From the NCBI GenBank assembly GCA_003858485.1, contig RQYD01000004.1, forward strand, positions 62,001-126,000: a DNA stretch of 64,000 nucleotides, given 5' to 3'. Origin of the DNA: Clostridiales bacterium COT073_COT-073. GTDB taxonomy: Bacteria; Bacillota; Clostridia; Lachnospirales; Vallitaleaceae. Below are positions 10,460-47,604 of the stretch, one piece after another (position 1 is the stretch's first letter; each line of letters opens with the position of its first letter). Under the pieces are notes generated by a model. The model was not told the origin of the DNA, searched no databases, and was given only the letters and a program-made list of their open reading frames with translations. The position numbers were made by a program, and so were the translations under genes.

Positions 10460-12766
10460 ATGGAATTTTTATTCCTTATTTTATCAACCAGTATTTTTAT
10501 GTCGCTGATCATTTTGCTGGCCACTGTGGCATTCATTCTTTGGCCGCAGGCACTATCGGGCAAAACCAGATACATCATTTGGATCATCATTTTAATTGGT
10601 CTGATTGTTCCATTTCGACCAATTTGGGGAAATGGTTTATTTCAAATTGAAACTCCCTTTCCTCAGTCCGAAATTAACTTACCGGTAACGGAAGAAATCA
10701 CCCTAACGGATGAGCATAGCAAAACAAGTAACAACCAGGTTGCTGTAAAAAACGAGACTGCTCTCCCGGAAAAACCGATGACAACTGCCGGCTCAGATAT
10801 GGTTGCCGTTTCCTCTGCACCAAAGAGCGGTTTTTCTCTTTCGATTGTATCTATCATTTTACTGATTTGGGCAATCGGAGCAATTTTCTCGTTTTCCAGG
10901 CATTTATATAGTTACTACCAGTTTCGCAAAATGGTAAAGCGCTGGGGCGTACCCGTTACTGATTTAGCAACTTTAGAACTGTTTGACATTGTCAAGGAAG
11001 ATATGGGGCTGCAACGCAAAAATATCCAGCTAATCCAATGTACTTCCATTACCACTCCTATGCTGACCGGCTTTTTAAAGCCTACCATTTTACTGCCGAA
11101 TAAGAACATTGAGGCTGATGAAATGGAATTAATCTTTGAACATGAGTTAACACACTACAAACATAAAGATTTATATGTTAATCTGCTGGGCACACTGGCT
11201 GTCAGTCTGCACTGGTTTAATCCAATTGTCTATTTTTGCTATCCTTCCATTCAGGGAGACGGCGAAGTATGTTGTGATGAAGCAGTCTTATCCAATCGTG
11301 ATTTGGACTATCGTCGCTTCTACGGTGAAGTAATTATTAGTATGATTGAACGAAACAATACCAAGCAAGTGGCTTTTTCCACCTGTTTTTACGCAAAAAA
11401 ATTAAACATCAAAAGGAGGCTTTTTGCAATTATGGAAACAAATAAAAGAAGAAAAACAATATCGTTTATGGCTATAGGACTTATTTTAACATTAATTATT
11501 GTGTCCGGATCGATTGTCGCTTTCGGCGCACCATCAAGTAATAATTATATCGGCGTCGATGCTGCCAAAACCATTGCCTTAAACGATGCCGGTCTGGCAC
11601 CAAGTGAAGCTATATTTATTAAAGCCAAACTAGATACCGACCTTGGCGTAAAAGTATATGACATTGAGTTTTACAGTGGCAACACCGAATATGACTATGA
11701 AATTGATGCCAAAACTGGTGTCATTCGTGAACGTGATTTTGACATTGCTAACTTTGTAATTCCAGCTCCAAATACCAACACCGGTAATACTCAAAACAAT
11801 AACGCTGCCCTGATCGGAACTGAAAAAGCCAAAGCCATTGCTCTGGCTGATGCCAAATTAAATGCTGACCAGGTCACTTCCTTAAAGGCAAAGCTGGGTA
11901 CCGATGATGGCATTCAGGTTTATGATGTTGAGTTTTTCAGTGGCAATACCAAGTATGACTATGAAATTGATGCTAAAACCGGTAAAATCCGTGATAAAGA
12001 TGTGGAAGTAAAAAAGAATGCACCTGCCCAAAACAACAATAACAATAGCAATGCACCCCTGATCGGCGTGGAAAAAGCCAAAGCTATTGCTTTAGCTGAT
12101 GCTAAGTTAAATGCCAATCAAGTAACTTTCTTAAAGGCAAAGTTGGATACCGATGATGGCGTTCAGGTTTATGATGTGGAGTTTTACAGCGGCAATACCG
12201 AATATGACTATGAAATCGATGCTAAAACCGGTAAAATCCGTGATAAAGATCTGGATATAGAAAACTTCAATATCCCTGCTCCAGCACCCAGCAATGACAA
12301 CACTGCCCTGATCGGCGTGGAAAAAGCCAAGGCCATTGCCTTAGCTGATGCTAAATTAAATGCCAGTCAAGTGACTTTCTTAAAGGCAAAGCTGGATACC
12401 GATGATGGCGTTCAGGTTTACGACATTGAGTTTTACAGCGGCAATACCGAATATGACTATGAGATCGATGCTAAAACCGGTAAGATCCGGGAGAAGGATC
12501 TGGATGTAGAAAACTTCAATATCCCTACTCCGGCACCCGGCAATGACAACACTGCCCTGATCGGTGTGGAAAAAGCCAAAGCAATCGCTTTAGCTCATGC
12601 AGGCTTAAACGCAAATCAAGTGGTGTTTGAAACTGCCAAACTCGATACTGATGATGGTGTTCAGGTTTATGATATTGATTTTAAAGCCGGTCAGGTTGAA
12701 TATGACTATGAAATTGATGCCAAAACCGGAAACATTCGTGATTTCAGCAAAGAAATCGATGACTAA
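10460..12766 (+). CDS. M56 (BlaR1-like) membrane metalloprotease with five PepSY repeats
   Basis: A 768-residue membrane protein. Hydrophobic segments lie near residues 3-28, 37-53, 126-146 and 334-355. The M56 zinc protease motif HELTH is at 228-232, with CCDEAVLSNR near 271-280 supplying the third ligand. Instead of a penicillin sensor, residues 364-763 hold five PepSY-like repeats (about 364-426, 452-514, 535-597, 618-681 and 701-763) joined by Pro/Asn-rich linkers. Each repeat contains EYDYEIDAKTG or a close form. Repeats 3 and 4 are nearly identical in protein and DNA, so the array expanded recently. PepSY domains are usually extracellular regulators of proteases. It presumably senses an envelope signal and inactivates the adjacent BlaI. 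Confidence 0.92.
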   Translation: MEFLFLILSTSIFMSLIILLATVAFILWPQALSGKTRYIIWIIILIGLIVPFRPIWGNGLFQIETPFPQSEINLPVTEEITLTDEHSKTSNNQVAVKNETALPEKPMTTAGSDMVAVSSAPKSGFSLSIVSIILLIWAIGAIFSFSRHLYSYYQFRKMVKRWGVPVTDLATLELFDIVKEDMGLQRKNIQLIQCTSITTPMLTGFLKPTILLPNKNIEADEMELIFEHELTHYKHKDLYVNLLGTLAVSLHWFNPIVYFCYPSIQGDGEVCCDEAVLSNRDLDYRRFYGEVIISMIERNNTKQVAFSTCFYAKKLNIKRRLFAIMETNKRRKTISFMAIGLILTLIIVSGSIVAFGAPSSNNYIGVDAAKTIALNDAGLAPSEAIFIKAKLDTDLGVKVYDIEFYSGNTEYDYEIDAKTGVIRERDFDIANFVIPAPNTNTGNTQNNNAALIGTEKAKAIALADAKLNADQVTSLKAKLGTDDGIQVYDVEFFSGNTKYDYEIDAKTGKIRDKDVEVKKNAPAQNNNNNSNAPLIGVEKAKAIALADAKLNANQVTFLKAKLDTDDGVQVYDVEFYSGNTEYDYEIDAKTGKIRDKDLDIENFNIPAPAPSNDNTALIGVEKAKAIALADAKLNASQVTFLKAKLDTDDGVQVYDIEFYSGNTEYDYEIDAKTGKIREKDLDVENFNIPTPAPGNDNTALIGVEKAKAIALAHAGLNANQVVFETAKLDTDDGVQVYDIDFKAGQVEYDYEIDAKTGNIRDFSKEIDD

Positions 12767-30653: not shown

Positions 30654-32309
30654 TTATTTTTTTTGGTTGTCTACAAATTCCTGGCAAAGTTTAACATATT
30701 CATTAACCTTTAACTTTTCAAGGGTCTTTAAATGGTCTTCCCAACCCTTTTGATCAATTCCATTGACAATTGATGTAGCCACAAATTTATTCAGATAATT
30801 ATCAATATCAGCCAACATCAATACCCGTTGTTCCGAATTTTCTTTGGATGCAAAGCCAAGTGGCAATGCCTTAACGCCATAACCTTTATCAATTACTTCT
30901 TGATTTAATAATGGTTTTAATTTCTTCGGTTGATTGGAAAAAATCTTATCTTGATAAGATAAATTAAAGTAAGCAGGTGATTTTCCAGCAAATGATTGCA
31001 TTCTGCGAAGTTCTTCACGGTTATTGGCGCCTTTGGCTTTTTGGATTTCCGGATCGTTTAAGAATTCCACCATGCCTTCTTTCCCTTCCGGTACTCTCCA
31101 GGCTTCATCTTTAACACCACGGTTCCAAGCCATAATGGTTTCTAAATCTTTATTGCAGTAATCATACCAACGCACCAATGCTCCCGGGTTCTTACAAGCC
31201 TTAGTAATGCTGAAGCCATCTACATGCTCAATATTATTTAAACCAACTGTGATATTGCCATTTTTATCAGCTAATAACAAAGGCAACCAGGTTCTGGTTT
31301 TATCTTGCTTATCATAGGTAATGACCACACCATATTTATCTACTTCTTCCGCCAATTTTGCTTTGTATTGATCCTGGCTATGGGTAAATACTTCTGTATC
31401 TAATAATCCATCTTTATATAATTCAGCAAAAAATTGTAATGCTTCAAAGTATTCATCTTGTTGAGCCGCAAATTTAACTGTACCATCTTTGGTCATAACA
31501 TGGGACGAACTTTCAAATACTCCAAAAGCAGCAAGAGCATTTTCCATTCCATCTCCCCAGCCCCAAACGCCGCGGAAAGTCATCGGAACTTCATCGGCAG
31601 TATCGCCATTGCCATTCGGATCACCGTTTTTAAATGCTTCTAAGACTTCTCTTAATTCAGCAGCATTTTTAGGAACTTCTTTTCCTACTGCTTTCAACCA
31701 GTTTTCATTGATAAACATTTGTGAGTCGATTGCATTCCAATATGTTTCATCACCGGTAGGTAAGCTGTAAATATGTCCATCCGGTGCTTTTAACATTTCC
31801 CAATATTCTGGTCTGGAATTAAAGAATTTAACGATATTCGGAGCAATTTCTTCAGTTAAAAATTCATCCAGCGGATAAAGCTGAGTATATTTTTCTTCAA
31901 CTGATAAATCTCCTAAAATCGCATCTGGCAAGTCACTTGTGCTAAACAAAATATTAATTTTTTCTTTCCAGCTGGAAGATGCTACTTCAATAAAGTTAGT
32001 GTCTACATTAGTATCAGCAATTCCTTTTTTTACCACTTCTTTATCATTGGCAGCTACTACCGGTGACAACTGTTCAACATAAATGTCAAAAGTTTCTTTT
32101 TCATTTAAAATCGGATATCCGGTATGATTAAACATAGCCATCACACCATCCTCTTTTTTCTGTTCTGTGTTTTCGGTTTTAGATGTTTCTGCCGGCTTAC
32201 TGGCTTCTTGTTTTGTGTCTTCTTTGGCTGGGGTCGTTTTTTCGCCGCATCCGCTCAAAGCAGTTCCAACCATAAGAATTGCCATTAATAAACTAATAAT
32301 TTTTTTCAT
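30654..32309 (-). CDS. LplA-type oligosaccharide-binding lipoprotein
   Basis: About 551 residues. The signal peptide ends in the lipobox ALSGC (Cys21), followed by a Lys/Glu/Thr-rich linker of about 40 residues and a large family 1 solute-binding domain (for example YPLDEFLTEEIAPNIVKFF and NGDPNGNGDTADEVPMTF). The NDPNGNG-type calcium-like loop is typical of LplA proteins. The ATG at 32307-32309 has GGGAGGTAATT upstream. First gene of the operon, about 190 bases from a consensus promoter. Confidence 0.93.
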   Translation of the reverse strand: MKKIISLLMAILMVGTALSGCGEKTTPAKEDTKQEASKPAETSKTENTEQKKEDGVMAMFNHTGYPILNEKETFDIYVEQLSPVVAANDKEVVKKGIADTNVDTNFIEVASSSWKEKINILFSTSDLPDAILGDLSVEEKYTQLYPLDEFLTEEIAPNIVKFFNSRPEYWEMLKAPDGHIYSLPTGDETYWNAIDSQMFINENWLKAVGKEVPKNAAELREVLEAFKNGDPNGNGDTADEVPMTFRGVWGWGDGMENALAAFGVFESSSHVMTKDGTVKFAAQQDEYFEALQFFAELYKDGLLDTEVFTHSQDQYKAKLAEEVDKYGVVITYDKQDKTRTWLPLLLADKNGNITVGLNNIEHVDGFSITKACKNPGALVRWYDYCNKDLETIMAWNRGVKDEAWRVPEGKEGMVEFLNDPEIQKAKGANNREELRRMQSFAGKSPAYFNLSYQDKIFSNQPKKLKPLLNQEVIDKGYGVKALPLGFASKENSEQRVLMLADIDNYLNKFVATSIVNGIDQKGWEDHLKTLEKLKVNEYVKLCQEFVDNQKK

Positions 32310-32505
32310 AATTACCTCCCATTTACTGTTTTTGTCTGGCCACAAAAATAATTTCAATTACCAGGATCATGGCTAAACTGTAATTATTTTGGGCTATCAT
32401 TTGCCTTTGGTACTTTCATTTTTCAATTAAAATCTGGTTATCCCATCCCTTCTCTGTTAATACTATACAAGAAACTTTTTAAACCCTCTTTAATAACTTA
32501 ACCTC

Positions 32506-40314: not shown

Positions 40315-41970
40315 TTATGCCAGCTCCAGCATCTCACGCGCTGTATCTTCAACTGCCTTACTGATATTTTTACCGCCCAGTAATCTGGCAATTTCCTTAA
40401 CTCTGGCTTCGCTATCAAGTGGCATAATATCGGTTTTGGTCTTATTACCTTTTTCTTCTTTATAAATCAAATAATGAGCATCACCAAGAGCAGCAATTTG
40501 CGGTAAATGGGTAATTGCAAAAATTTGCTTTTGGCTTGCCAACAGCTTCATTTGCTCGCCCACCATACCGGCTGTCACTCCACTGATACCACTGTCAATT
40601 TCATCAAAAATCAAACTGGGAATCCTGTCAACCGCTGCAAAGATCCCTTTTAGGGCCAGCATGATCCGTGATAATTCACCGCCGGAGGCAATTTCAATTA
40701 AAGGTTTCAACTTTTCTCCCTTATTGGTTGAAAGATAAAAAGCAATCTCATCTTGTCCATCCGCTGACACTTGCTTCCTTTTCGTAAAATTCACCTTAAA
40801 TTCATTATTATTAAAGTTGAGTCCGGCTAGTCGTGTGGCCATTTCTTTTTCCAGCTTGGCTGCTGCTTTTTGCCGGATAAGCGTCAATTTGTCTGCTGCT
40901 TCTCTCATTTTCTGATCAATGTGAAGGCGTTTTTCCAGTAATTTTGCCCGATTTTGAGTCATCTGCTCAAGAAACAGCAAGCGCTCTCTTTTCTCCTGTT
41001 CCGCTGCCATAATTTGCTCTATGGTATTACCATACTTGGCTTTCAATGAATTGATCTCATCCATTCTTTCTTCAGCTGCAAACAGCCTTTCTTCAAAGCC
41101 ATCGACACTATCCAAATACCGGTCGGCTTCTCTGGCCACATCATGCAGAATGTCCTCGACACTTAAAAGCTGCTCCCAAAGAGAATTGAGTTTTTCATCA
41201 TAATCCTTGATCCGCTGCAAGCCATGTGCTGCCTGAGCAATTTGACTGCGGCTGCCGTAATCTCCGCTGACTGCCTCCGATACTGTCTGTAGGGCTTCCT
41301 GAATATGGCGGCTATTTTGTAAAATATCTAATTCCTGTTCCAGCTCGTCATCCTCGCCCTCTTTTAAGGCAGCATGCTCAATTTCATCTATTTCAAATTG
41401 TAAAAAGTCCAGCTCACGCAATCGTGCTGATTCATCAATCTCTGATTCGGCCAACATTTTTTCAACTTCCCGGCGCTCCCCATCCAGCTCTTTTAACTCC
41501 ATTAACATCGGAGTCACTTCTTTGGCAAAATACCGATCGATCATCAGCATATGATTTTTTACCTGCAAAAGCGACTGATGCTCTCTTTGCGAATGAATGT
41601 CAAATAAATGAGAACGAAGTTCCAAAACTGCTGCTTTGGTCAACATTTGCCCATTGCCACGAAAAACTGAACGGCCACCTGTAATTTTACGGCTAATAAT
41701 CAGTTCACTGTCTTTTTCCAGCCCTAAATTTTCCAGACATTCGAAAAAGGAAGAATCACTTTCATCCAGGATAAATAAACCCTCAATAAAAGAATCTTCC
41801 TCTCGTTTTAAGCTCTTGCCCATTTCACCGCCCAGTAAGGCATCAATTGAGCCGATAATCATAGATTTTCCCGCGCCAGTCTCACCAGTTAAAATATTTA
41901 GCCCCTCGCGAAAGGTAATTCGTATTTCATCAATTAGTCCAATCTTTTGAATATGTAAATTAACCAGCAT
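40315..41970 (-). CDS. recN: DNA repair protein RecN
   Basis: A 551-residue SMC-like ATPase for double-strand break repair. Walker A GETGAGKS is at 29-36, FDIHSQREHQSLL follows near 127, a coiled coil spans roughly 155-380, the C-terminal signature is EIASGGELSRIMLALKGIF and Walker B is PSLIFDEIDSGISG. It is the last gene of the xseA-xseB-oapA-tlyA-nadK-argR-recN cluster, starting 21 bases after argR, a common Firmicutes order. Confidence 0.96.
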   Translation of the reverse strand: MLVNLHIQKIGLIDEIRITFREGLNILTGETGAGKSMIIGSIDALLGGEMGKSLKREEDSFIEGLFILDESDSSFFECLENLGLEKDSELIISRKITGGRSVFRGNGQMLTKAAVLELRSHLFDIHSQREHQSLLQVKNHMLMIDRYFAKEVTPMLMELKELDGERREVEKMLAESEIDESARLRELDFLQFEIDEIEHAALKEGEDDELEQELDILQNSRHIQEALQTVSEAVSGDYGSRSQIAQAAHGLQRIKDYDEKLNSLWEQLLSVEDILHDVAREADRYLDSVDGFEERLFAAEERMDEINSLKAKYGNTIEQIMAAEQEKRERLLFLEQMTQNRAKLLEKRLHIDQKMREAADKLTLIRQKAAAKLEKEMATRLAGLNFNNNEFKVNFTKRKQVSADGQDEIAFYLSTNKGEKLKPLIEIASGGELSRIMLALKGIFAAVDRIPSLIFDEIDSGISGVTAGMVGEQMKLLASQKQIFAITHLPQIAALGDAHYLIYKEEKGNKTKTDIMPLDSEARVKEIARLLGGKNISKAVEDTAREMLELA

Positions 41971-41990: not shown

Positions 41991-42443
41991 CTATACTAAG
42001 TTTTTAATATCCCGGAGCAATTCTTCGGCTGCCTGTACTGAACGGGTAGCACAAAAAATCGTATCATCTCCGGCAATACAACCGATCACATGGCGAAAGC
42101 CCAAGGCATCAATGGCTGCCGCCACCGCCATGGCCATACCGCTTAATGTTCTAACTACTACCATTTGGCCAGCCGTTTCACCATTTTTGTAGCCATGTTT
42201 TAAAATATTGCGATATTTTTCATTGCTCATCTCCGGTGTCATTTCTGCCTGCGGCAAACTGTATCTGACCCTGCCGCTGGCATCTGCCGATTTAATCAGC
42301 TTTAATTCTCTGATATCTCTGGAAATGGTTGCTTGTGTAACCTGATAGCCTTCTTTTAAAAGGATTTGCACAATTTCATCCTGAGTTTCCACTTCTTCAT
42401 TCTTAATAATATCCAATAGTCTGGATTGTCTTTGAAATTTCAT
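41991..42443 (-). CDS. argR: Arginine repressor ArgR
   Basis: A 150-residue ArgR/AhrC. The N-terminal winged helix (QSRLLDIIKNEEVETQDEIV, then the recognition segment VTQATISRDIRELKL) binds ARG boxes. The C-terminal hexamerisation and arginine-binding domain has the VVRTLSGMAMAVAAAIDAL and CIAGDDTIFCATRS motifs with the conserved Gly-Asp-Asp. ATG with GGAGGTGAAGAG upstream. Located between nadK and recN, its usual position in Clostridia. Confidence 0.95.
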   Translation of the reverse strand: MKFQRQSRLLDIIKNEEVETQDEIVQILLKEGYQVTQATISRDIRELKLIKSADASGRVRYSLPQAEMTPEMSNEKYRNILKHGYKNGETAGQMVVVRTLSGMAMAVAAAIDALGFRHVIGCIAGDDTIFCATRSVQAAEELLRDIKNLV

Positions 42444-42525: not shown

Positions 42526-43344
42526 TTACAATTTTTCCTTTAGCACCGAAAAGAAATTGGTGTCCTTGCGCCGAATCAAATTCGTAGTTCTCTGTGATCT
42601 CACAATCTGCAATTTCGTTCCCTTAACCAGCGGAATCATGTCCTTGCCATCCAAGGTTACGGAAACATCATCCAGTCCGTTTAATTCATCAAATTCCAGT
42701 TCAATCACATCTTTTGCCGACAAAACCAATGGTCTGGCTGACAGGGAATGTGGGCAAATCGGAGTCACGGCAATATTTTCACAATGCGGTAAAATAATTG
42801 GTCCACCGGCCGATAAATTATAAGCAGTTGAACCAGTCGGAGTGGATACAATCGCCCCATCTGCCCGATAGTATCCAGCCAAATTTCCATTAATTTCTAA
42901 GGTGTATGCCAACATTCTGGAAATATCATGACGTTTTAAAACCACCTCATTTAAAACCGAACCCAAATAATTCTTTTCTTCACCAATAATACTATAGGCA
43001 TTTAACATCATTCTTTTTTCAACTACATATTTTCCGTTAAGCACTTCATCCAAAGCCGCAAATGCCCTGTTTTCTTCAGTTTCCGCCAAAAATCCCAAAT
43101 GCCCTAAATTAATTCCGAAAACCGGTGTTTCATTTTTTGATACTTCTTTGGCAACCTCAATGATTGTTCCATCACCGCCCAGAGTAATTAACAAATCCTG
43201 TCCTTTTATATTTTCGCTGTTAAGCCGGTGAACGCAAACAACCTTTTTTTCTCTTTCTTCCAGCCATTGTTTTAAAATATTGGTAAACCGCTCCTGTGTA
43301 TCCTTTTTAACATTAGTTACAATTAAAATCTTTTGAAAACTCAT
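42526..43344 (-). CDS. nadK: NAD kinase
   Basis: About 272 residues. Phosphorylates NAD to NADP. The diacylglycerol-kinase-like motif LITLGGDGTIIEVAKE near residue 56, NLGHLGFLAE and DGAIVSTPTGSTAYNLSAGGPII are all conserved. The start is the ATG at 43342-43344, whose A is also the last base of the tlyA stop codon (TGATG); a GTG just before it is in frame. Coupled to tlyA. Confidence 0.95.
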   Translation of the reverse strand: MSFQKILIVTNVKKDTQERFTNILKQWLEEREKKVVCVHRLNSENIKGQDLLITLGGDGTIIEVAKEVSKNETPVFGINLGHLGFLAETEENRAFAALDEVLNGKYVVEKRMMLNAYSIIGEEKNYLGSVLNEVVLKRHDISRMLAYTLEINGNLAGYYRADGAIVSTPTGSTAYNLSAGGPIILPHCENIAVTPICPHSLSARPLVLSAKDVIELEFDELNGLDDVSVTLDGKDMIPLVKGTKLQIVRSQRTTNLIRRKDTNFFSVLKEKL

Positions 43345-44201
43345 CACTCTACCATTTCATGGGATTTATTAACAATTTCCCTAATATCCTGGTCACACAC
43401 TGATTGCTCCATTTCCCTTGTCCATTCCTCAATATATTCTTCTTTTTCGATCTCCCCCCCATCTTGTTTTTGATTTTTTAAATGCAGTAAATATTCAATA
43501 TTACCGGCTGGTCCCTTAATTGGCGAAAAATCAAGGCCTAATATCTGAAACCCTCTGACCTTCATTTCCTGAATGATCAACTCAATCACCTGACAATGGA
43601 CTTCCTTATCCCTGACTACTCCGTTTTTTCCAACCTTTTCTCTGCCCGCTTCAAACTGTGGTTTAATTAAACAAACAACTTCCGCCTCAGGCCGCAAGCG
43701 ACTTTGAACTGCATCAATAATCTTGGTCAGCGAAATGAAAGACACATCAATACTGGCAAAATCTATTAACTCCGGTACATGCTCTTCAGTTAAATAGCGA
43801 ACATTGGTCTTTTCCAGTACTATCACCCGCTTGTCTGCGCGTAACTTCCAATCCAGTTGGCCATAGCCAACATCAATACTATATACTTTTTTTGCTCCAT
43901 GCTGAAGCATGCAGTCCGTAAAACCGCCGGTAGAAGCACCAATATCCATACATTTCTTATCTGTCAAATCAATGGCAAAAGCCGACAGTGCTTTCCATAA
44001 CTTATAACCGCCACGACTGACAAAACGATCTTCGGCTCCTTTGACTCTGATTTCTTTATCGACCGCCACCATGGTTCCGGCCTTTTCTTCTCTTTCATCA
44101 TTTACCAAAACTTTTCCCGACATGATCAGAGCTTTGGCTTTCTCTCTGGATGCAGCCAATCCTCTGGCAACCAGCAGCACATCCAATCTTTCTTTCTTCA
44201 T
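43344..44201 (-). CDS. tlyA: TlyA-family rRNA 2'-O-methyltransferase
   Basis: About 285 residues. An N-terminal S4 RNA-binding domain (RLDVLLVARGLAASREKAKALI) is fused to an FtsJ-type methyltransferase with CMDIGASTGGFTDCMLQ as the SAM site. TlyA proteins methylate ribose in 16S and 23S rRNA. The start at 44199-44201 has GGAGATAAAC upstream. Overlaps nadK by one base. The C-terminal 20-30 residues are acidic and variable. Confidence 0.93.
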   Translation of the reverse strand: MKKERLDVLLVARGLAASREKAKALIMSGKVLVNDEREEKAGTMVAVDKEIRVKGAEDRFVSRGGYKLWKALSAFAIDLTDKKCMDIGASTGGFTDCMLQHGAKKVYSIDVGYGQLDWKLRADKRVIVLEKTNVRYLTEEHVPELIDFASIDVSFISLTKIIDAVQSRLRPEAEVVCLIKPQFEAGREKVGKNGVVRDKEVHCQVIELIIQEMKVRGFQILGLDFSPIKGPAGNIEYLLHLKNQKQDGGEIEKEEYIEEWTREMEQSVCDQDIREIVNKSHEMVE

Positions 44202-44258
44202 GTTTATCTCCATTTCACCGGCCTTAACCGGCTCCCCAACAAGGGAAATATACCTAGA

Positions 44259-44822
44259 TCAACTCCTTTGAAAAAAATTCAAAAACCGGCCAATTTGAAA
44301 AACAATAAAATTGGCATTGCGCATGGCAATTTCTTTGGCAATTGCTTTTCCGCCCACAGTGATAGCCGCAATCAAACCCGATAATAAAATTTCTGATGTA
44401 CTTAGCCAAAAACGATCCTGAATCGCCAATTTAATAATAATCGCTGCCGCTGCACTGCCCGAAATAATGCCGGCAATATCTCCCACCACATCATTACAAA
44501 AATTGGCAACACTGCCTGCATTCCGTATAATTTGAATGCTTTCTTTGGAGCCTTTAACATTAGAAGCAGCCATCGAGTGAAAGGGCACTTCATTAGCGGC
44601 CGTAACCGCAATTCCCAATAAGTCAAAAAATATTCCGACTGAAACAATCAGGAATAAAATAAAAAGTGCCGCCAGCACAGATACTCTGGCCATAAACATA
44701 ACCGAAAAATACGCCATCAGTATAGCAATAAAAAAAGTAGCCACAGTAATAAATGCAATCCATTTATAATTTACTTTTCGCTTCACCTTGTTTTTAAATT
44801 TAATTCTGTTTTTCTTACCCAA
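44259..44822 (-). CDS. oapA: OLE-associated membrane protein OapA
   Basis: A 187-residue membrane protein starting at TTG with AGGATAAAGG upstream. A very basic N-terminus (KKNRIKFKNKVKRKVNYK) suits RNA binding. Hydrophobic segments follow at about 21-44, 48-75, 112-131 and 145-160. A DxxxD motif (Asp111, Asp115, in NDVVGDIAGIISG) lies at the start of the third segment, and FFDLLGIAVTAANEVPF precedes it. OapA is known to bind OLE RNA and bring it to the membrane. The identification rests on length, topology, motif and position: first gene after the 600-base RNA and before tlyA. Confidence 0.88.
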   Translation of the reverse strand: MGKKNRIKFKNKVKRKVNYKWIAFITVATFFIAILMAYFSVMFMARVSVLAALFILFLIVSVGIFFDLLGIAVTAANEVPFHSMAASNVKGSKESIQIIRNAGSVANFCNDVVGDIAGIISGSAAAAIIIKLAIQDRFWLSTSEILLSGLIAAITVGGKAIAKEIAMRNANFIVFQIGRFLNFFQRS

Positions 44823-44983
44823 AATAAGCCTTTATCCTGTCATAGTAATAATAAAATCCATTTTCCTCAGTTCTTATCCTAATATATTATCTACACGAAA
44901 AAGTCTGTTAATTATACTTAATTGCCGAATTGTTTTACTTTTAACATCCGGTCAGACAAAGTTCTTTCGCATTAATTCTACAT

Positions 44984-45586
44984 AAAAAAGTAAGACAACT
45001 CAAATGATAAATTTTACGACATATGGTCCTGCAGGTTTTCCCGAATTCTTACTTTATTGTCACCAAAAAAGCGGTTTCCCTTTAAAAGACTTCCAAGGCA
45101 GTTGCCACGCCTTGCGCAAGATCGCCGCAAACAGTCGTACCGTAATCCCACTTAAGCTTCAAGCGAACAGTCTAGGAGCTTTCCTCGGCAACTCCTTTAC
45201 TTCCTAGTCTTTTTAGCAATTTATCGTTTCAAGGGACAATCTTTCGTCCTATTTGGCCAAATATTCGGAAAGTCGCAATCCCTATCCCCGAAAAATCACG
45301 CAAGACAGGCTACACTGCCCACAGCTTTCGCCGCAAGACAGGTTCCACCCGATTTTGCAGGTAAGCCTACCATAAAAGTCAGAATCTCCCGCAAACATCG
45401 GTCTCCACGAAAAACGGGTCAACGCCTGCATGCCATTGCAGATCGCCCGAATCTCTTAACTCCCGACACCAGCCCGCGACTGGGCGTCACCAGCCAATAC
45501 CAGGAACTTCATCGATATGCCCTTTACGGATTTTTAGCCCCGTCTTCGGAAGCAAAGCAATCGACTAGAATACTGTGTCTTACTTT
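44984..45586 (-). ncRNA. ole: OLE RNA (ornate, large, extremophilic RNA)
   Basis: A ~603-base transcription unit without a credible gene. A consensus promoter (TTGCAA-17-TATAAT) ends seven bases before 45586. The first bases, AAAGTAAGACA (45576-45586), pair perfectly with TGTCTTACTTT (44987-44997), closing the whole RNA, and six T follow. The interior is richer in G+C than nearby intergenic DNA and has several local stems (for example TTGCGCAAG, and GGCTGGTG near GCGGGCTGGTG). Length, position between xseB/DUF212 and oapA-tlyA-nadK-argR-recN, and the downstream membrane gene match OLE RNA, a membrane-associated RNA implicated in adaptation to cold, alcohol and Mg stress. I have not aligned it to the consensus. 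Confidence 0.87.
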
Positions 45587-45592
45587 AAAATA

Positions 45593-45621
45593 ATTATACT
45601 ATATGCTTTTAAGAATTGCAA
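45593..45621 (-). promoter_or_regulatory. Promoter of the OLE RNA
   Basis: TTGCAA (45616-45621), 17-base spacer, TATAAT (45593-45598) on the minus strand. Start of transcription expected near 45586, the first base of the terminal stem. Confidence 0.85.
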
Positions 45622-45650: not shown

Positions 45651-45693
45651 AAAACCCTTTCTGCCCGCTGGTATTGCAAACAGAAAGGGTTTT
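45651..45693 (-). terminator. Terminator upstream of the OLE promoter
   Basis: AAAACCCTTTCTG and CAGAAAGGGTTTT arms (13 pairs) with a 17-base loop; on the minus strand a fifth T follows. It would end the nusB-xseA-xseB-DUF212 transcript before the OLE promoter and make the RNA an independent unit. Confidence 0.75.
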
Positions 45694-45765: not shown

Positions 45766-46206
45766 TTAATATAATAAGCCAATAGCAATCCCCAGCAGCA
45801 TCCCCACAAAAACTTCCAAGTAGGTATGCCCCAGCAGTTCTTTCAGTTCTTTTTCAATTTGAAAATTAGCCCGTCCAAGCTGATCAACAATCTGCTTGAT
45901 TACTTTCGCCTGCTGACCGGCTGCCATCCGCACATTGGCGGCATCATACATAGTAATAAAAGAAATTACCATGCCAAAGCCAAACAGCGGATTACTAAAA
46001 CCATATATTTTGCCGATCTGGACTGTGGCTGCTACAATTGACGCTGTATGTGAACTGGGCATTCCGCCTGAGCCCATAATCCTTTCCGGGTCAAACTTCT
46101 TTAACCTGGCCCAGGTCGTCAAGATCTTAAAGCCCTGAGCCAAAAACCAGGCAATCAAAGCTGATACAAATGGTCCATTATTAAATATTTCTTCTATATA
46201 CTTCAT
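45766..46206 (-). CDS. Divergent PAP2 family membrane protein (DUF212/YuiD)
   Basis: A 146-residue membrane protein of the DUF212 family, related to PAP2 phosphatases. The motif GSGGMPSSHTASIVA (the SxxH of the phosphatase site) near residue 46 is retained, and YDAANVRMAAGQQA follows. Four hydrophobic segments. The start codon overlaps the xseB stop (ATGA). A lipid or isoprenoid diphosphate substrate is plausible in this position, where isoprenoid genes are often found, but is not shown. Confidence 0.9.
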   Translation of the reverse strand: MKYIEEIFNNGPFVSALIAWFLAQGFKILTTWARLKKFDPERIMGSGGMPSSHTASIVAATVQIGKIYGFSNPLFGFGMVISFITMYDAANVRMAAGQQAKVIKQIVDQLGRANFQIEKELKELLGHTYLEVFVGMLLGIAIGLLY

Positions 46207-46406
46207 AGCTCATCTACTTCCAAAATAATTAACTCTTTTTCCGCTTTTTCCAGTTTCAGGGAACATTCTTTCAATAATTCCACTGCTTTTTGATACTGCT
46301 CCAAATTTTCTTCAAATTTCAAATTTCCCGATTGCAAGTTTTCAATGACCTGTTCCACTTCTTTTAGCATTTCTTCCATACCAATATTGGTTTTCTTACG
46401 TGCCAC
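46203..46406 (-). CDS. xseB: Exodeoxyribonuclease VII small subunit
   Basis: A 67-residue XseB: two helices with MLKEVEQVIENLQSGNLKFEENLEQY followed by the second helix. It forms the helical subunit that binds the long XseA helices in exonuclease VII. Starts at GTG with GGAGGAGATCACAG upstream and overlaps the xseA end by 11 bases. Confidence 0.95.
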   Translation of the reverse strand: MARKKTNIGMEEMLKEVEQVIENLQSGNLKFEENLEQYQKAVELLKECSLKLEKAEKELIILEVDEL

Positions 46407-47604
46407 CTGTGATCTCCTCCACTCTTAAACCTAAGCTCCCATCTTTAACATATGCTTTAACAAATTCATTCAGTGCGACCTCCCGCACTCCATGAATCGG
46501 TTTTCCACCGGCATTTTCCAAATAAACATAGCCTGCCTCCAATTTTTGCCTCGGGTTTAAAGCCAATAGCTCCTTTTGCTTTAAATCAATTTGCCAATGG
46601 ATTTTTTTCAAGTAATGCGAAAATTCTCTGGTCAATTCTCTTTCCCGCTCTACCAACTGTATTCCAATATCCACCAACTTCCGGCGCGGATGATGATGAC
46701 TCAGGCGGAGTTGTAAAACATCTCTTTCCTTGGTGAAATGGTTTAAATATAACCGGAATTCTTTTTGTAAACGCTGCTTCGTTTCCAATAATCTTTGTTT
46801 TTGACTGAGTCTGGCCGGAATTGCCAATTCTGCTGCAGCTGATGGAGTCGGTGCCCGTAAATCAGCTGCCAAATCAGATAAGGTAACATCCGTTTCGTGT
46901 CCAACTGCGGAAATTACCGGTATCCTGGAATGAAAGATGGCCCGGACTACGGCTTCTTCATTAAATGGCCATAAATCTTCAATTGAACCTCCGCCACGGC
47001 CAATGATAATAGTATCTACCGGATTTTTTTGAGCATTAAAATAAGCAATACCATTGGCGATATTAGCTGCGGCCCGCTCTCCCTGAACTAAACTGGGATA
47101 TAAAATTAACTGTACTGCCGGATTCCGTCTGGATGCAATTTGCACAATATCCTGAATAGCAGCACCGGTTGCACTGGTGACAATACCAATGGTTTCCGGC
47201 AGGACCGGGATCTCCTTTTTCGGTTTTTGAAAAATTCCTTCGGATGCCAGTTTTTGCTTTAATGCTTCCAATTTTTGAAATAAATCACCTTGACCACCAG
47301 CCTTTACTTCCCGGACATAAATCTGATAACTGCCTGTTTTTTCATATACCCCAACGCCGCCACTGACAATTATCTTTTTTCCATTTTCCGGCAGTACTTC
47401 GGCACTAGCTGCATATCCAGCAAATAAAACACAGGAAATTGCGGCCGCTTCATCTTTTAAAGTAAAATATACATGTCCCGAACTATGTCGCTTGGCATTG
47501 CTGACTTCACCTTCAATTTGCAAATTATTAAGCAAAAAGTCTTCCCGAAACAAGTTTTTTATATATAAATTTACTTCTGCTACTTGAAAAACTTTACCCG
47601 CCAT
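46396..47604 (-). CDS. xseA: Exodeoxyribonuclease VII large subunit
   Basis: A 402-residue XseA that degrades single-stranded DNA. The N-terminal OB fold (VYFTLKDEAAAISCVLF) is followed by the catalytic domain with GIVTSATGAAIQDI, IIIGRGGGSIEDLWPFNEE and AVGHETDVTLSDLAADLRAPTPSAAAEL, then a long coiled coil from about 270. ATG with AGGAGAAGAG upstream. Followed by xseB with overlap. Confidence 0.96.
   Translation of the reverse strand: MAGKVFQVAEVNLYIKNLFREDFLLNNLQIEGEVSNAKRHSSGHVYFTLKDEAAAISCVLFAGYAASAEVLPENGKKIIVSGGVGVYEKTGSYQIYVREVKAGGQGDLFQKLEALKQKLASEGIFQKPKKEIPVLPETIGIVTSATGAAIQDIVQIASRRNPAVQLILYPSLVQGERAAANIANGIAYFNAQKNPVDTIIIGRGGGSIEDLWPFNEEAVVRAIFHSRIPVISAVGHETDVTLSDLAADLRAPTPSAAAELAIPARLSQKQRLLETKQRLQKEFRLYLNHFTKERDVLQLRLSHHHPRRKLVDIGIQLVERERELTREFSHYLKKIHWQIDLKQKELLALNPRQKLEAGYVYLENAGGKPIHGVREVALNEFVKAYVKDGSLGLRVEEITGGT

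Follow-up and report, generated by a model that had tools for sequence, protein, structure and literature searches.

A full-length OLE RNA gene with a covarying terminal helix, upstream of oapA in a Clostridiales genome

The OLE gene and its neighbours

The DNA analysed here, a stretch of 64 kb referred to as the window, was scanned as a whole against all Rfam families at curated thresholds using cmscan, as the earlier note had suggested for its reading of 44984-45586 as an OLE RNA. The scan returned one match only, to RF01071 (OLE) at 45597-44976 on the minus strand, with a score of 443.9 bits (E 4.6e-127), nearly nine times the gathering score of 50 bits. The match covered model positions 1-616 of 616 with small indels only. 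A full-length match at this score settled the identity of the RNA: the minus strand of 44984-45586 is a full-length gene for OLE, a membrane-bound noncoding RNA already known from many Gram-positive bacteria, and not a new discovery. A genome-wide search found one copy of OLE. The GGCC palindrome of the L9.3 dimer loop, a dimer site named in PMC12286853, was present in the match alignment (UUUGGCCAAA). From the promoter position and the terminal helix described below, the 5' end was predicted near 45586 and the 3' end near 44987, giving a mature RNA of 600 nt (44987..45586, minus strand). Its size, abundance, membrane location, and function would be those known from Halalkalibacterium halodurans.

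On the minus strand, the OLE gene was preceded by xseA (46396..47604; TIGR00237, 441.8 bits), xseB (46203..46406; PF02609), and a gene for a DUF212/divergent PAP2 family protein (45766..46206; PF02681, 147.7 bits), and was followed by oapA (44259..44822), tlyA (43344..44213; TIGR00478, 290 bits), nadK (42526..43347; PF20143 and PF01513), argR (41991..42443; TIGR01529, above the cut-off), and recN (40315..41970; TIGR00634, 453.4 bits). The setting expected for an OLE gene was therefore present, with oapA next downstream, except that the DUF212 gene stood in place of ispA; the same gene lies upstream of OLE in many relatives too. Two further genes of the window drew our attention. One (10460-12766, plus strand) encodes a 768-aa protein in which a BlaR1-type M56 peptidase domain is joined to five PepSY stretches, and the other (30654-32357, minus strand) encodes a 567-aa protein with no Pfam match, which adjoins two ABC-type permease genes and is perhaps a divergent solute-binding protein.

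The oapA gene, approximately 150 nt beyond the Rfam match, encodes OLE-associated membrane protein A, with 187 aa and a TTG start. Its product had no match in Pfam or NCBIfam and no sequence match among solved structures; it was recognized by its position beside OLE and by its homologues at 116 loci, some of them overlapping, which are the OLE-linked gene. At 79 of 80 loci fetched by OapA protein homology alone, OLE was found just upstream of oapA. A D111-x3-D115 pair was invariant in an alignment of 117 OapA sequences, some of which come from overlapping loci, and probably corresponds to D100/D104 of H. halodurans OapA, whose mutation is severe (PMC9723947). One locus (L063) was considered as an instance of OapA on its own and rejected, because a full OLE was found elsewhere in the same genome; the partnership of OapA and OLE thus holds there and only the linkage is broken. 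In this genome (G197, Clostridiales MAG Gsp477_bin49, ~0.9 Mb; loci L063 and L139), the full OLE scored 401 bits and was located apart from oapA, with no OapA match detected within the 3.6 kb around the OLE.

OLE was detected in each of the 22 genomes searched in the family to which the window belongs, in 40 of 196 genomes sampled in the order, and in none of 14 control genomes. The nearest named relatives were Clostridia MAGs, the closest named locus being that of an unclassified Eubacteriales MAG. Three MAG contigs labelled Actinomycetota or Desulfovibrio (L021, L026, and L078) also bore OLE-oapA; they are probably binning errors, which have also been proposed in print for OLE matches outside the Bacillota. 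The earlier description of such an RNA as rare in bacteria was too strong, since OLE has been reported in 2,822 Bacillota genomes (PMC11332333).

Terminal helix, promoter, and flanking sequences

The two ends of the predicted RNA are complementary. The 5' strand of the terminal helix (AAAGUAAGACA) is located at 45576..45586 and the 3' strand (UGUCUUACUUU) at 44987..44997, both on the minus strand. The 11 perfect terminal pairs noticed earlier were borne out, as AAAGTAAGACA (45586-45576) and TGTCTTACTTT (44997-44987) are exact reverse complements with 11 Watson-Crick pairs. Covariation was analysed in 50 OLE loci with both ends readable. The mean helix was 12.5 bp for true partners versus 6.9 bp for swapped partners, and the true helix-length sum of 625, versus 427 for the best permutation, was reached in 0 of 20,000 permutations, a test that is inflated by the relatedness of the loci. 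In a fixed register, positions 5 and 7-12 varied on both strands, and 43-49 of the 50 loci were paired. The helix was kept under sequence change, as in AGGACATAGGTGGTG/TGCCACCTATGTCCT, TATATACTAAAGATG/TATCTTTAGTATATA, and AAAGTAAGACA/TGTCTTACTTT, and such compensatory changes were so many that there is little doubt that the helix covaries. It is missing from the RF01071 consensus, in which both ends are marked as unpaired; the unconstrained minimum-energy fold of the predicted RNA also contained it. Published OLE models number the helices from P1 upwards and show a distinct domain close to both ends (PMC12265935), so the terminal helix is probably P1 of these models. Some relatives within the order (L123, L128, L117, and L118) had a longer helix, of 18-23 pairs, and any TATAAT found at these loci was further upstream, about 33-43 nt from the conserved CAGTAT, which would suit a coupling between the length of the helix and the position of the promoter.

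A TTGCAA-17-TATAAT box was found where it had been described, at 45621-45593 on the minus strand, with 10 of 12 consensus matches. This box alone is weak evidence, because promoter-like sites were common in the region, with 11 found versus 5.1 expected in a consensus scan. Among relatives, its position was kept: of 50 OLE loci, 34 had TATAAT in the 40 nt preceding the conserved CAGTAT, versus 6 of 390 control stretches. The box at 45593..45621 is therefore probably a sigma-A-type promoter of OLE. With TATAAT ending at 45593, transcription should begin near 45586, where the terminal helix has its first base. Further upstream, at 45651..45693 on the minus strand, folding revealed a hairpin of 18 pairs with a T-run (-29.4 kcal/mol, z -5.6), which was absent from the list of terminators obtained by the pattern scan. 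This hairpin resembles an intrinsic terminator and would end the xseA-xseB-DUF212 unit ahead of the OLE promoter. The order on the minus strand was thus terminator-like hairpin, promoter, OLE, a gap of ~150 bases, and oapA.

The T-rich flank said to follow the 3' strand was present (TTTTTTATG). It was not kept among the OLE loci of relatives, which were without the T-run, and a conserved 3' terminator of OLE was rejected on this ground. The pattern scan found no terminator between OLE and oapA either. Together these observations suggested that OLE may exist mainly within a longer OLE-oapA transcript before trimming. Within the gap (44823-44921, minus strand) we observed a TATAAT near 44921-44916 and a tiny frame from near 44861. 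The gap sequence differed among the three members of the genus, so a separate oapA promoter may be present in this species only.

An alternative is that the region is solely a structured, riboswitch-like cis leader of the oapA mRNA and not an independent RNA. At almost every locus OLE immediately precedes oapA, which would suit a leader, as would the missing terminator between them. However, the OLE of H. halodurans is an abundant free RNA of ~630 nt (PMC9723947), the RNA is closed off by its terminal helix ~160 nt ahead of oapA, and the separation of OLE from oapA in the reduced genome mentioned above is impossible for a cis leader. We consider this alternative very improbable.

Partner proteins and the kink-turn

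The genes for OapB, OapC, and MpfA were sought by targeted searches of the genome. The search for OapB proceeded from a KOW-type probe sequence to PDB 7k9b, which is OLE-associated protein B, and from a fragment of 7k9b to the protein of the genome itself. The genome encodes an OapB homologue, a KOW-type protein of 94 aa homologous to 7k9b, whose gene is flanked by map and infA within the ribosomal-protein operon; the published location of the H. halodurans OapB gene is an operon of translation genes. Within the family, 21 of 22 genomes had OapB. No CNNM-domain protein (MpfA family) was found in the genome or its two genus mates, which fits the published anticorrelation.

Only one L7Ae-family protein was found in the genome and in each of the two genus mates. 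In all three, its gene adjoins a YlxR-like gene in the nusA-infB operon, and this position indicated that the protein is of the YlxQ type. A second L7Ae-type gene was located directly upstream of rpsL in two other members of the family that were inspected (G001 and G012); no L7Ae-type gene was found upstream of rpsL in this genome or in the single-contig genus mate. The OapC (YbxF) gene is thus probably absent from the genus. At two loci of the genus (L137 and L138), rpsL was without the preceding rpoC-ybxF of relatives and had unrelated genes upstream, which points to a linkage broken together with the loss of the OapC gene. By published figures, OapC is present in just ~45% of OLE hosts and missing from more than half, so it does not define membership in the OLE RNA family. 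Since the searches did not reveal a canonical OapC gene, the OLE complex may differ from that of H. halodurans. The segments of the kink-turn to which OapC binds, J4a/5 (CATATCGATGAAG), J5/6 (AGTTAAG), and J6/7 (CGTGGAG), were intact and were the same as in most relatives with the second L7Ae protein. We tentatively propose, at slightly below even odds, that the OLE complex of this genus works without OapC and that its kink-turn either does without a protein or is bound by YlxQ, a paralogue of ribosomal type.

The apparent absence of OapC, together with a score somewhat under those of several relatives (443.9 bits versus up to 515.5 bits), could be taken to mean that the copy is degenerate or inactive. 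The full-length match has no helix missing and its key conserved segments are intact, the terminal helix is perfect, and oapA is intact with its invariant residues, all of which make a degenerate copy still less credible than a cis leader. Least credible of all is a coding or antisense-coding region: the earlier statement that these ~600 bases hold no gene stood, the only listed ORF being an antisense 67-aa frame (45004-45207, plus strand) with no support for its translation, and the full-length structural RNA match on the opposite strand accounts for the conservation.

Proposed working and comparison with known OLE RNAs

The observations are best explained jointly by a single OLE RNA gene of the Clostridia-type Bacillota that has its own start, is transcribed into oapA, is trimmed, and acts in a complex like that of H. 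halodurans, a reading to which we assign a probability of about 0.93. According to this model, transcription would start at the promoter of OLE itself near 45586, just past the putative terminator of the xseA-xseB-DUF212 unit, and would continue from OLE into oapA; trimming on the 3' side would then give an RNA of ~600 nt closed by the terminal helix. In H. halodurans and Clostridium acetobutylicum, OLE is a homodimeric membrane RNA with OapA, OapB, and other partners, and helps the cell under stress from alcohol, cold, magnesium, or the carbon source (PMC9723947, PMC12265935, PMC12286853, PMC11332333). By analogy with H. halodurans, the RNA would fold as a homodimer, OapA, a small transporter-like membrane protein, would hold it in the membrane, OapB would bind its P13 hairpin, and the complex would aid tolerance of the same stresses. 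The intact kink-turn would either be used protein-free or have the YlxQ-type protein, the one L7Ae-family member left, as its partner.

Few bacterial RNAs that lack a known biochemical function are as large and as well conserved as OLE, and one further member leaves the general picture unchanged. Two small points concern the specialist, namely a covarying terminal helix absent from the Rfam model and a kink-turn kept without an apparent OapC gene.

Compared with known systems, the gene resembles the full-length OLE (RF01071) of H. halodurans and C. acetobutylicum in its length and whole consensus structure, in the conserved segments of the kink-turn and dimer loop, and in having oapA directly downstream, the xse/tlyA/nadK/argR/recN setting, and a probable promoter of its own. 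It differs from these full-length systems in that a DUF212 gene precedes OLE and no OapC gene of the usual kind was found. Moreover, a terminator-like hairpin parts OLE from the upstream genes here, whereas the H. halodurans cluster has been reported to be polycistronic with an extra promoter. OLE variants share the core conserved nucleotides with full-length OLE and have parts of P7-P9 or P13 shortened or missing (PMC11332333); unlike them, the copy in the window fits the full-length Rfam model with small indels only.
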